The notes beneath the pieces are model-generated. The model was given only the letters and a program-made list of their open reading frames with translations, did not search any database and was not told the origin of the DNA. 64,000 nucleotides of DNA from Armatimonadota bacterium. GTDB lineage: Bacteria; Armatimonadota; Fimbriimonadia; Fimbriimonadales; Fimbriimonadaceae. Positions 47,295 to 51,774 of this stretch are shown one piece after another; position 1 is the first letter of the stretch; the number at the start of each line of letters is the position of its first letter. The stretch is taken from positions 186,001 to 250,000 of the forward strand of contig JAFDWR010000003.1 in assembly GCA_018268355.1 (NCBI GenBank), written 5' to 3'. The position numbers and the translations under genes are program-made.

Positions 47295-47346
47295 GTTCAA
47301 GCGGGTACCATATTGGGAAATTGCCTTTTGGCATTTGGAGAAGAAA

Positions 47347-47919
47347 TTGGCCGTCGATACCAGCGATTTTAAGAACGGAATGCACTTCTACCTCGATGGT
47401 GAAGTGTTCACGATCATCGAATTCCAACACGTCAAACCGGGCAAGGGTGGCGCGTTTGTCCGCACCCGACTGCGAAAGCTCAAGACCGGGCAGACCCTCG
47501 AAAAGACCTTCCGTTCGGGCGAAAAGGTCGAACCGGCCTTCGTCGAGAAGCTTGCCTACCAGTTCATCGGTCGCCAGCGCGACAAGATCACGGTCATGGA
47601 CCTTGACACCTACGAGCAGTTCGATGTGGACGCCGCTCAGCTCGGTGACCAGGCCAAGTACCTCAAGGACGACGCCGAACTCACCGCTCTCGTGGCGAAC
47701 GGCGAAACCCTCGGCTGGGAGCTTCCGAACTTTGTTGAATTAGAAATCACCGAAACCGAGCCTGGTTTCAAGGGTGACACCGTGAGCGGTGGCGCAACCA
47801 AGTCGGCAACCGTGGAGTCGGGCGCAACCATCCAGGTTCCGTTCCACATCAAGGTCGGCGATATCGTCAAGATCGACACCCGAAGCGATTCCTATCTCGA
47901 ACGCGTCAACCGAAAGTAA
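47347..47919 (+). CDS. efp: translation elongation factor P
   Basis: EF-P relieves ribosome stalling at polyproline. With TTG at 47347 the product is 190 residues, MAVDTSDFKNGM, the normal family start, and GGAG lies six bases upstream. An in-frame TTG at 47335 adds four residues. Domain I has the modification loop HVKPGKGGAFVRTRL with Lys33 at the site beta-lysylated or otherwise modified in other bacteria. The C-terminal OB domain ends RSDSYLERV. No epmA or epmB gene is near, so the modification state is unknown. Confidence 0.94.
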   Translation: MAVDTSDFKNGMHFYLDGEVFTIIEFQHVKPGKGGAFVRTRLRKLKTGQTLEKTFRSGEKVEPAFVEKLAYQFIGRQRDKITVMDLDTYEQFDVDAAQLGDQAKYLKDDAELTALVANGETLGWELPNFVELEITETEPGFKGDTVSGGATKSATVESGATIQVPFHIKVGDIVKIDTRSDSYLERVNRK

Positions 47920-47974: not shown

Positions 47975-49054
47975 ATGAGTATTGGCGGAGGAAACAATCG
48001 ATCCGACTCGGCAAGTGAGATCCTCGCGGATCTCCTTGCCAAGTTGGCCCAGGGCCTGATGATCATCGGAGGGATCACCCTCCTCATCGGCCTTGGATTC
48101 TCGTTCTACAGCGTGTTTGCCGGTGCAGACGTCACCGACGCTGCTCTCAAACAGGGCCTGAAGAACGTTGGCCTGTTCACCAACCTTTCCCTGGTTGGCG
48201 GCATTGTCTTTTGCCTTGCCGCGAGCTACCTGTATTGGGATGAAGGCTGGCTTGGGCCGACCCTTCTCGTTTCGGGAATCGTCTTTGCCACTTCGCCGGT
48301 TTGGATGCCGGCGGCAGGAATCGGCAAGGCGGACAAGGAACTCCCCGCCGCTGCGATGCGCACGCTTGCGACGGCCGGCATGATCCTGCTCGTCTTCGGC
48401 GTCCTGCTTGTGGTCATCGACGGCATCATCCGCATGCGGCAACGCATGGAGCAAGGCGCGAAGGCCGACCAGCTCAAGTACGGCAAGGGCATCAAGGACG
48501 TCGACGAGAAGCAGAACGTCTTCCTTGGCAAGTGCTGGCAGCTTCCCTTCTGCCGAAAGTTCGTCCGCGAAAAGTGCCCGATTTACCACTCCCGCACCAC
48601 CTGCTGGAAGGAGCTCGTCGGCTGCATGTGCGAAGAGAAGGTCATCCAGATGGCGATGGATGGCAAGCCCATCCCCAAGGACGCCATTCTCGCCGCGAAC
48701 TACATCCCGCGCAACAACAAGCTCACGATCGAGCAAAAGAAGGACCGATGCCGCTCGTGCGTGATCTACAACGAGCACCAGAAGCACAAGTACCGCGTCG
48801 CCGTCCCGGTCACCGTCATCGCCTTCATCCTGGTCTACCTCCTGCTCCATGGCCCGATCATCTCGGTGGTCGGCAGCATGGTGGGCGCACTCGATAAGTT
48901 CGTCAATGTCGCCACCCTCGGCAAGGTGGATAGCGCGGCAGCGAAGTCGGGCGGTGCCGCATTCACCGAAATCCTTGGTGCAAGCCTGGGCGTGATTGGG
49001 CTCACCTACACGCTTAAGGCGATCGAGTACGCGATCTTCAGATTGAAGCTCTAA
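47975..49054 (+). CDS. multi-pass membrane protein with cysteine-rich two-CW-like domain
   Basis: The 359 residues have about four TM segments in residues 20-150, a cytoplasmic-looking cysteine-rich region and two or three more TM segments after 270. The cysteine region (about 185-270) reads GKCWQLPFCRKF, EKCPIYH, TTCWKELVGCMC and later DRCRSC. This is the C-W...C...CP...C-W pattern of the two-CW domain plus a final CxxC, suited to zinc or an Fe-S cluster. The gene abuts the RtcA-like gene with no gap and RNase J follows, so an RNA-linked role is possible. No family name for the whole protein is known to me. Confidence 0.7.
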   Translation: MSIGGGNNRSDSASEILADLLAKLAQGLMIIGGITLLIGLGFSFYSVFAGADVTDAALKQGLKNVGLFTNLSLVGGIVFCLAASYLYWDEGWLGPTLLVSGIVFATSPVWMPAAGIGKADKELPAAAMRTLATAGMILLVFGVLLVVIDGIIRMRQRMEQGAKADQLKYGKGIKDVDEKQNVFLGKCWQLPFCRKFVREKCPIYHSRTTCWKELVGCMCEEKVIQMAMDGKPIPKDAILAANYIPRNNKLTIEQKKDRCRSCVIYNEHQKHKYRVAVPVTVIAFILVYLLLHGPIISVVGSMVGALDKFVNVATLGKVDSAAAKSGGAAFTEILGASLGVIGLTYTLKAIEYAIFRLKL

Positions 49055-50104
49055 ATGACAAGCGCCCTCATTCAGTTCGACGGTTCGTACGGTGAGGGCG
49101 GCGGAGCTTTGATTCGCACCGCGCTCGTGATGGCGAGCCTCACCCAACAAAGCTGTCGAATTGAAGGCGTCCGGGCGGGGACCTCCCACCCCGGCGTCGA
49201 CCTCGAAGACGTTGCGCTGGTCCAGCTCCTCAACAAAGCCTGCCAGGCGGAAGCGGTTGGACTTGAGCACGGCTCGCCGTCGCTCATGTTCGTTCCCGGC
49301 AAGAAGCATTCGGCCGTGCGCGGCGACTTCAAGGTGGAGAGCTTCATGGGTCGCCAGCCGAACGCGATGGTGATCCTAAACGCCCTTGTCCCGCTCCTCG
49401 CGCGCACCGGAGCCTATTCCAGCCTGAAGTTCCAAGGAGAGACGTTTGGCCGGCGCGCGCTGGGCTTCGACTATTTCCGCGATGTCACCTGCCGCGTGTT
49501 CGCCAAGATGGGCCTCGGCGTCTTCCCCGAGCTCATCCGCGCGGGCTATGGACGCGAAATGCCGGGGATGGTGGGCCTTGAGGTGGAGCCGAGCGCGATC
49601 CAGGGCATCAATTGGACCCAGCGCGGCGGCTTGATCGGCCTCCATGGCGTCATCACGACCTCCAACTTGCCAAGTACGGTTGGTGACCGCGGACGCGCCC
49701 ACCTTCGAACCCTCGCCCAGAAGCTTGGCCTCAAGATCGACGTCGAGCTCCAAGATGTGCCCGGCGAGCACCCTGGGGCCCACGCCACGGTTTACGCGGT
49801 TTATGAAAACGGCCTCGGCGGAGGCACCCAGATGGGGTCGCGCGGCGTTCGCATCGAGACGATCGTCCAGCAAGCCTTTGAAGAATGCGCTCGCTGGATG
49901 GCGACCGACGCCACCATCGACCCCTTCCTCGCTGACCAGATCATCATTCCCGCCGTCCTCGCCGACGGCTCGTCCAGCTTCAAGGTGAGCGAGCTCACCC
50001 CGCGCCTGTTGACCGCGATCTGGGTCATCAAGCAATTCCTCCCCATCCACATCACCGTGGTGGGAGCCGAAGGTCATCCAGGAACAATCCAAGTTCGAAG
50101 GTAG
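49055..50104 (+). CDS. RtcA-like RNA 3'-phosphate cyclase homologue lacking the catalytic histidine
   Basis: The 349 residues clearly belong to the RtcA/Rcl1 fold family: DGSYGEGGGALIRTALVMAS near 9, VRAGTSHPGVDLED near 43 and LADQIIIPAVLADGSSSF near 293. In active cyclases the next segment holds the adenylated His (as in the E. coli SCHLLTNI segment). Here it reads SELTPRLLTAIW with Arg317 at that place. The PxGGG signature is also altered (REMPGMVGLE) and the RQH contact is replaced. Adenylyl transfer is therefore doubtful. Rcl1, a catalytically dead relative, acts in rRNA processing. Cotranscription with rnj fits such a role, but this is inference. Confidence 0.85.
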   Translation: MTSALIQFDGSYGEGGGALIRTALVMASLTQQSCRIEGVRAGTSHPGVDLEDVALVQLLNKACQAEAVGLEHGSPSLMFVPGKKHSAVRGDFKVESFMGRQPNAMVILNALVPLLARTGAYSSLKFQGETFGRRALGFDYFRDVTCRVFAKMGLGVFPELIRAGYGREMPGMVGLEVEPSAIQGINWTQRGGLIGLHGVITTSNLPSTVGDRGRAHLRTLAQKLGLKIDVELQDVPGEHPGAHATVYAVYENGLGGGTQMGSRGVRIETIVQQAFEECARWMATDATIDPFLADQIIIPAVLADGSSSFKVSELTPRLLTAIWVIKQFLPIHITVVGAEGHPGTIQVRR

Positions 50105-50127: not shown

Positions 50128-51774
50128 ATGGCTACCGTTGAAGTTGTCGCATTGGGCGGCGTGGGCGAGATTGGAAAAAACTGCACCGTCGTTGAGCAGG
50201 GCGATGACTGGATCCTCATTGATGCGGGACTCAGCTTCCCGAACGAGGAGATGCCGGGAATCGACATCATCATCCCCGACTTTGCTTACCTCGTCGAGAA
50301 TGCCGAGAAGCTGAAGGCGGTCTTCCTCACCCATGCCCACGAGGACCACGTCGGCGCGCTTCCCTACCTCGTGAGCGAGCTCAACGTGCCGATTTATGCC
50401 ACCGAGTTCACTCACCTTCTCATCAAGGACAAGATGGAGGAGAAAACGGGCCGGAAGGACCTCGATCTGCGCGTCATGAAGTTCGGTGAGAAGGTCGAGG
50501 TCGGTGGTCTCACGGTCGAGCCTATCCGAATCACGCACAGCATCCCCGAAACCGCGGCCATTGCCATCCAAACCGTCCACGGTAACCTCCTTTTCACCGC
50601 CGATTTCAAGTTCGATTTCACGCCCGTTGATGGAAAACTCAGCGACCTCGCCCGCCTCTGCGAGCTTGGAAAGGAAGGCGTCCTCAGCCTCTTCAGTGAC
50701 AGCACCAACGTCGAGCGTCCAGGATGGGGCCCGAGCGAGAAGGACGTCATGCCGGGACTGCGCAAGGTCTTCTCCGAGGCGCAAGGCCGCGTCCTCCTCA
50801 CCACCTTCGCGAGCAACATCCACCGGATGCAGCAGTTCCTGAACGTCGCCGCCGAGTTTGGCCGCAAGGTCGCGGTGGTCGGTCGACGAATGGAGTCGAA
50901 CCTCGACATCTGCAGCCGGTTTGGCTACCTCAAGGCACCCCGCGGCATCATGATCACCCTCGATGACGCTAAGGACCTGCCCGCCCACGAAGTTGCGATC
51001 CTCACCACGGGCTCGCAGGGTGAGCCGTTCAGCGCGCTCGTCCAGATGTCAAAGGGCGAGTATGGCCGCATGCAGATCAAGCAGGGCGACACCCTGATCT
51101 ATTCGGCCCGCCCCATCCCCGGCAACGAGGGCGCGATCTGGCGCACGATCAACCGACTCTTCCGGCAAGGCTGCACCGTGGTCTACGAAGGCCCCACCCC
51201 GGTCCACGTCTCCGGCCACGCTTACCAGCAAGAGCTGCAGATGATGATCAACCTCACCAAGCCGTTCTATCTCACTCCGGTCCACGGTGAGCCGCGCCAC
51301 CAGCACAAGTACCTCGAGCTTGGCCGCGAGATGGGCTATCCCGAGCACCGCATGTTCACCCTCGAAGTCGGCCAGAAGCTGGTCTTCGACGAGACGAAGG
51401 CGTTCTTTGGCGACCGAGTGCCGTGCGGGCGGGTCCTCATCGACTCCACCGGCCAGCCCGGAGTCCCGGATGAGGTCCTGCGCCACCGAAATGCCCTCGC
51501 GAAGGACGGTTTGGTCACGATTGCGGTCTCGGTCGACGTCGAAGTCGGCGAGATCATCGGCGAACCGATTCTCCAGTCGACGGGCCTCTTCATCAGCGAA
51601 GAAAAGCTCAAGCACATCCGCGAAATCGTCGCCGATAGCCTGAACAGCTTGAACCGAAACGAGTGCAAGGACACCGGCAAAGTGCGTCACCTGCTGCAAG
51701 AAGTGGCCAAGAAGGCGCTCCTCCGCCAAGCCGGTGCTCGGCCGGTCATTCTCGTGACCGTGTTTGAGGTTTAA
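50128..51774 (+). CDS. rnj: ribonuclease J
   Basis: RNase J is a 5'-exo and endoribonuclease of the MBL/beta-CASP family. The 548 residues start with VVALGGVGEIGKN, followed by the metal motif THAHEDHVGALPY near 69, the FTADFKFD segment and the beta-CASP block FSDSTNVERPG near 190. TTFASNIHRMQQ follows near 230, and the C-terminal domain is at 450-548. All metal ligands appear intact. It follows the RtcA-like gene by 23 bases. Its TAA stop overlaps the convergent PilZ gene within TTAA. A TACCCT eight bases before the ATG is a weak -10. Confidence 0.95.
   Translation: MATVEVVALGGVGEIGKNCTVVEQGDDWILIDAGLSFPNEEMPGIDIIIPDFAYLVENAEKLKAVFLTHAHEDHVGALPYLVSELNVPIYATEFTHLLIKDKMEEKTGRKDLDLRVMKFGEKVEVGGLTVEPIRITHSIPETAAIAIQTVHGNLLFTADFKFDFTPVDGKLSDLARLCELGKEGVLSLFSDSTNVERPGWGPSEKDVMPGLRKVFSEAQGRVLLTTFASNIHRMQQFLNVAAEFGRKVAVVGRRMESNLDICSRFGYLKAPRGIMITLDDAKDLPAHEVAILTTGSQGEPFSALVQMSKGEYGRMQIKQGDTLIYSARPIPGNEGAIWRTINRLFRQGCTVVYEGPTPVHVSGHAYQQELQMMINLTKPFYLTPVHGEPRHQHKYLELGREMGYPEHRMFTLEVGQKLVFDETKAFFGDRVPCGRVLIDSTGQPGVPDEVLRHRNALAKDGLVTIAVSVDVEVGEIIGEPILQSTGLFISEEKLKHIREIVADSLNSLNRNECKDTGKVRHLLQEVAKKALLRQAGARPVILVTVFEV

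Follow-up and report, generated by a model that had tools for sequence, protein, structure and literature searches.

A histidine-less branch of the RNA 3'-phosphate cyclase family, carried throughout a family of Armatimonadota and probably put to a non-cyclase job

Rcl1 is a cyclase-like protein of the eukaryotic SSU processome that acts in pre-rRNA processing, and to our knowledge it is the only known protein of the RNA 3'-phosphate cyclase (RTC) family without the histidine nucleophile, the residue that is adenylated in RtcA (His309 in Escherichia coli). In an alignment with human RCL1, read by eye, RtcA Arg21 and Arg40 both correspond to Arg, Arg43 to Asp, Gln51 to Phe, and His52 to Glu. 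Maize RCL1 is reported (PMC9048941) to lack the equivalents of Glu14, Arg43, Gln51, His52, and His309. Another study (PMC4914098) states that a nuclease activity once reported for Rcl1 was not shown to be specific on retest, and that the RDK motif of Rcl1 is required for binding to Bms1; it is possible, then, that Rcl1 serves as a scaffold without catalysis of its own.

Here we describe an RTC gene without the nucleophile in a bacterium. The window (the whole 64,000-nucleotide stretch analysed: positions 186,001 to 250,000 of contig JAFDWR010000003.1, assembly GCA_018268355.1) comes from a member of the class Fimbriimonadia of the Armatimonadota, and it contains an open reading frame for a protein of 349 amino acids (Table 1). 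A sequence-only reading had taken this protein for an RtcA homologue, and that assignment holds: the Pfam domains RTC (PF01137, E 3.4e-47) and RTC_insert (PF05189) both match above the gathering score, and a phmmer comparison with E. coli RtcA (1qmh_A) yielded an E value of 1.5e-35. The protein nevertheless falls below the cut-offs of both equivalog models, with 207.8 bits against 250.05 for RtcA (TIGR03399) and 37.8 bits against 227.95 for Rcl1 (TIGR03400). It is encoded by the single RTC gene of the genome; the single RtcB gene lies on a different contig, and the absence of an adjacent rtcB sets the gene apart from rtcA.

An AlphaFold2 model built from 41 aligned sequences (mean pLDDT 95.4, pTM 0.92) predicts the whole RTC fold, including the insert domain. 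In a search with Foldseek and VIA-align 2, the top match was the RtcA structure 4o89 (Z 45.1, rmsd 1.6, 338 residues aligned), and a second RtcA structure, 3tut, gave Z 40.3. The Rcl1 structure 4clq ranked below RtcA (Z 34.9, rmsd 3.0, 333 residues aligned), followed by enolpyruvyl transferases at Z of about 14.

Table 1. Positions of the RTC gene, its pocket codons, and its neighbours in the window, with two divergent copies from other genomes (given in the coordinates of their own loci)
Feature	Position	Strand	Evidence
efp (elongation factor P), precedes the membrane protein gene	47335..47919	+	Pfam EF-P domains
Gene for a membrane protein with 8 invariant Cys, immediately before the RTC gene	47975..49054	+	upstream in 74/84 loci of the window's family
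His-less RTC-family (RtcA-like) protein, 349 aa	49055..50104	+	ORF, PF01137 + PF05189, pLDDT 95.4, fold 4o89
Glu14 codon, catalytic-pocket residue kept	49094..49096	+	71/71
Arg21 codon, pocket residue kept	49115..49117	+	70/72
Arg40 codon, pocket residue kept	49172..49174	+	76/76
Glu51-Asp52 codons, in place of Gln51-His52	49205..49210	+	76/76 and 75/76 Arg-type
Glu129 codon, in place of RtcA Gly124 (SGGT loop)	49439..49441	+	75/76 Arg-type
Arg317 codon, place of adenylated His309	50003..50005	+	Arg in 76/76 full-length Arg-type
C-terminal KQFLPIHITVVGAEGHPGTIQVRR segment	50030..50101	+	retained in two pocket-less divergent copies
RNase J gene, immediately after the RTC gene	50128-51774		
Divergent RTC copies	L062 6047-7024; L194 4050-5027	-	two 1.5-Mb genomes of the window's family

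The same reading had placed Arg317 opposite the catalytic histidine by eye, and the phmmer alignments with the E. coli and Pyrococcus horikoshii enzymes agree: ...SELTPRLLTAIW... of the window protein lies on ...VAHPSCHLLTNI... of E. coli RtcA, with Arg317 on the adenylated His309, and P. horikoshii RtcA has SEITNHLKTNIW at this place. Its further observations, that the PxGGG signature and the RQH contact are altered while GEGGG and LADQ remain, were likewise confirmed. The F-Y-P-A-G-G-G (FYPxGGG) stretch of RtcA is gone, and the E. coli 'RQH' (residues 50-52) is Leu-Glu-Asp, so that Arg43, Gln51, and His52 of the RtcA adenylyl-transfer site are replaced by Thr43, Glu51, and Asp52; Gly124 is replaced as well, by Glu129. 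Besides GEGGG and LADQ, the window protein shares Glu14, Arg21, Arg40, and the Asp287-Gln288 pair with RtcA.

The replacements are strongly conserved. We compared 76 full-length sequences with Arg at the histidine position (Arg-type; copies of 320 residues or fewer were left out, and this length limit excluded two rows with a truncated site). Arg317 and Glu51 are invariant among them, Asp52 and Glu129 are present in 75, and all four rank among the best conserved of the 349 positions; the kept residues Glu14, Arg21, and Arg40 are nearly or fully invariant in Arg-type sequences (counts in Table 1). Neither the Glu51-Asp52 pair nor Glu129 occurs in any of 76 sequences with the histidine (His-type), and every His-type copy retains Gly124. 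Sequences with Thr at the histidine position (Thr-type) have Asp52 in common with the Arg-type, together with Val, Ile, or Met at position 51, Thr317, and, in 0/8, Glu129. As judged from these alignments, the rebuilt pocket is not merely decaying.

We also looked for a histidine elsewhere that could take over at the active site, which would have spoken against the loss. The best conserved of the nine histidines of the window protein is His in 41 of 76 relatives, and the best histidine column of the Arg-type alignment reaches 44/71, at a position where the window protein has Tyr12. Other candidate nucleophiles fared no better: Cys63 is conserved in 43/76, and Lys326 in 66/76, with Arg as the alternative. 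Because none of the His, Lys, or Cys positions is conserved enough to supply a new nucleophile, His-AMP chemistry is very unlikely, and the window protein is very probably not a cyclase.

To place the gene among its relatives we read these residues in 112 copies from the class and in E. coli RtcA. Across the 113 genomes of the class, a His-less copy was present in all 85 of the window's family (in one, G101, the gene is represented by fragments alone) and in all eight of a second family. Among 82 scorable copies of the window's family, 80 have Arg at the His309 place, and the other two, highly divergent copies from 1.5-Mb genomes, have Ser; two further copies are cut off ahead of this place but carry the same Met43-Glu51-Asp52 set. 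The second family has Thr in 8/8. A third family has His-type copies only, in 14 of 18 genomes with no match in the other four, and two families of one genome each gave no RTC match. A His-type paralogue accompanies the His-less copy in 4/85 genomes of the window's family and 2/8 of the second, and all 20 His-type copies of the class have Arg43, Gln51, His52, and His309. Beyond the class, the histidine was present in 55/55 RTCs from many phyla, archaea included; these 55 are the best matches to the His-less clade, and further His-less groups may exist. The other Armatimonadota classes have it in 40/40 sampled copies (the better-scoring among 66 matching genomes from beyond the class), one of which has Ala at Gln51. 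Within a scan that covered the best 80 of 508 relatives, those with a name belong to the Fimbriimonadaceae and to other groups of Armatimonadota. In the open-licence literature, as represented by titles and the openings of abstracts, we found no bacterial RTC protein without the histidine, which is weak evidence of absence.

Some individual copies deserve mention. The His-type copies L046, L060, and L061, from the second family and one genome of the window's family, branch apart from the class's own His-type copies, as if horizontally acquired; the first of these, in genome G050, adjoins rtcB, the sole such case among the class copies within the DNA fetched. In genome G034 the RTC gene (L053, 5961-6802, + strand) is split over two overlapping frames, by either a sequencing error or a real break. 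RtcB also differs between families: in the window's family it mostly scores 140 to 240 bits against the Pfam model (as at L031, 1501-2595), compared with 510 to 604 in most genomes of the third family, which suggests a divergent RtcB type.

The Arg-type copies group with the Thr-type in a single clade, with support of 100 in a quick tree of 118 rows and 100/100 in a careful tree of 65 rows, both built without the seven changed active-site columns. The trees include 34 and 17 Arg-type rows, respectively; neither contains the two Ser-type copies, and both lack the short Arg-type copies and any that came from loci beyond the first batch. The L053 fragment was dropped from two alignments, and L062 from the one with the RTCs from outside the class. 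The quick tree joins the His-less clade to 17 Fimbriimonadia His-type copies (support 98), whereas the careful tree does not. Among close Arg-type pairs with dS below 1, dN/dS was 0.059, 0.043, 0.031, 0.037, 0.098, and 0.014; two pairs at dS 1.06 and 1.14 yielded 0.139 and 0.024, and a ninth pair has identical proteins. Pairs with dN above 0.25 were set aside as saturated, including one same-genus pair at 0.306. Values of 0.014 to 0.139 in eight pairs indicate that the gene is under purifying selection. The change in this RTC protein is real, ancient, and family-wide.

In the window's family the RTC gene stands third in a recurrent order, after efp and a gene for a Cys-rich membrane protein. 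The gap between the latter and the RTC gene is mostly -1 to 10 bases, and of the 74 loci in which the membrane protein gene precedes the RTC gene, 67 have efp upstream of both. The ten exceptions comprise two contig ends, two divergent copies, and six genomes with the RTC gene elsewhere; efp and the membrane protein gene still adjoin in 5/5 loci fetched from these six. The membrane protein itself has no Pfam or NCBIfam match. Its invariant cysteines (187, 193, 201, 210, 217, 219, 259, and 262) fall in a loop flanked by hydrophobic segments and form a pattern that recalls a metal or Fe-S site, and its model has a mean pLDDT of 76.5, with the Cys-rich loop uncertain. We rejected this protein as a specific, dedicated partner of the RTC protein because 108 of the 113 class genomes carry its gene, including families without the His-less gene. 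A fusion of the two proteins, hinted at by a long open frame in genome G036, was found in none of the 74 loci. RNase J was likewise rejected as a conserved partner, as it adjoins the RTC gene in 1/84 His-less loci of the family, the window's own; such a neighbour might have suggested a role in rRNA processing.

In the second family we read six of the eight loci, with Pfam names in two, and some loci lack the full gene set. In the clearest one the RTC gene follows genes for a 7TM-HD protein, ybeY, dgkA, and a CorC/CNNM protein. YbeY is an rRNA-processing endonuclease, and its gene is near the RTC gene only in this family. In both families the surroundings include one gene connected with translation or rRNA and one for a membrane protein, and the link to translation that these neighbours offer is suggestive at most. 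The neighbourhood is weak evidence because the membrane protein gene is class-wide and the RTC gene lies elsewhere in six genomes. With modification of EF-P in mind, we searched the window's genome for EpmA and found none above the cut-off (best 222.3 against 286.9 bits); a search for EarP gave no match, and is uninformative because the controls were equally silent. As to the arrangement of rRNA genes, the window's assembly is uninformative: contig C2 (1-2000) ends inside a 23S rRNA gene, and the 16S gene was not found.

Two genomes of the window's family, G028 and G093, both of 1.5 Mb, have an RTC-like ORF in which the pocket residues are lost. These copies are 38% identical to each other, and both keep the C-terminal KQFIP...LTI.GKPG..GQ.IIR segment. 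A segment that outlasts the pocket favours a partner surface and fits binding as the retained function.

How, then, does the bacterial clade relate to the two described proteins? It resembles RtcA in its whole fold with the insert, in GEGGG and LADQ, and in Glu14, Arg21, and Arg40; it differs in His309, Gln51, His52, Arg43, Gly124, and FYPxGGG, all of which are replaced. With Rcl1 it shares an RTC fold without the nucleophile, the retention of Arg21 and Arg40, and the loss of His309, Arg43, Gln51, and His52, whereas Glu14 is kept in the clade and absent from the maize protein. In sequence the bacterial protein is far closer to RtcA. The suggestion that it might be a bacterial counterpart of Rcl1 stands in part: this is an ancient, conserved bacterial RTC protein without the nucleophile, changed at four of the five residues lost from maize RCL1. 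Descent from Rcl1 is the part without support, as far as the scores (37.8 against 207.8 bits) and the fold go, both of which favour RtcA; the trees were made without Rcl1. It seems, then, that the same sites changed independently in the two groups. On sequence grounds the gene is a branch of the RTC family parallel to Rcl1, distinguished from RtcA by the defining residues and from Rcl1 orthologues by score.

We believe that these observations are best explained by a non-catalytic protein that has been retained for a different job, to which we assign a probability of about 0.6. An RtcA copy in the ancestor of the two Fimbriimonadia families would have lost its His-AMP chemistry once, and its descendants would since have been kept as a core protein; a new job is probable. 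Glu14, Arg21, Arg40, Asp294, and Gln295 may still let the protein take hold of a phosphate or the end of an RNA with no reaction following, and binding of RNA ends or phosphate is our best reading of the kept residues. The protein would then act without catalysis, by binding RNA or as a scaffold. Its likeliest setting would be translation or ribosome maturation, where most gene neighbours act, a placement that we offer tentatively and at rather less than even odds. The invariance of Glu51, Asp52, Glu129, and Arg317 in the window's family speaks against this explanation, because a mere scaffold would not need them. Since the site is conserved and not decaying, new chemistry must be kept as a serious rival, if a doubtful one: a re-tooled enzyme would catalyse another reaction, possibly one that depends on a metal, with RNA, a nucleotide, or a protein (EF-P, for example) as its substrate, using a putative acid cluster of Glu14, Glu51, Asp52, Glu129, and Asp294 beside Arg21, Arg40, and Arg317. 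The conservation of the new residues, the 67 loci with efp upstream, and a fold shared with enolpyruvyl transferases, and hence able to host other chemistry, all agree with such an enzyme. The sister family, however, has Val, Ile, or Met51 and Thr317 and no Glu129, the whole site is lost in the two reduced genomes, and the acid cluster may simply pair with Arg317. A reading that combines all of these elements we consider unlikely. In it, a bacterial lineage would have made RtcA into a core factor of translation or ribosome maturation that is no longer a cyclase and has a rebuilt site of Glu51, Asp52, Glu129, and Arg317; the change would have occurred separately from that in eukaryotes, as a bacterial case of convergence with Rcl1, and new chemistry might be involved.

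The other alternatives are much less probable than a retained non-cyclase protein. Had the protein kept RNA 3'-phosphate cyclase or adenylyltransferase activity through another nucleophile, the intact fold and the retention of Glu14, Arg21, Arg40, and LADQ would be expected, but no conserved residue is there to accept AMP and the RtcA cut-off is not reached; we regard this as very improbable. Still harder to credit is a true Rcl1 orthologue, whether gained from eukaryotes or ancestral to theirs. The clade is likewise changed at four of the five residues missing from maize RCL1 (PMC9048941), and 4clq is a structural match, yet both RtcA structures fit better, the Rcl1 model scores far below its cut-off, and the His-less clade is seen in just two families. 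Gene decay or a fault in the assembly might account for the broken gene of G034 and for the very divergent copies in the two reduced genomes; elsewhere the gene is universal and under strong purifying selection, and this conservation refutes such a reading.

For annotation, the label 'RNA 3'-terminal phosphate cyclase' on genes of this kind is probably wrong. The molecular role of Rcl1 is disputed, as with the retested nuclease activity (PMC4914098). A second His-less branch, which seems to have evolved independently and belongs to free-living bacteria, reveals what residues disappear as a set and what others persist, and it would offer a simpler system in which to study a role of the RTC fold without adenylyl transfer.
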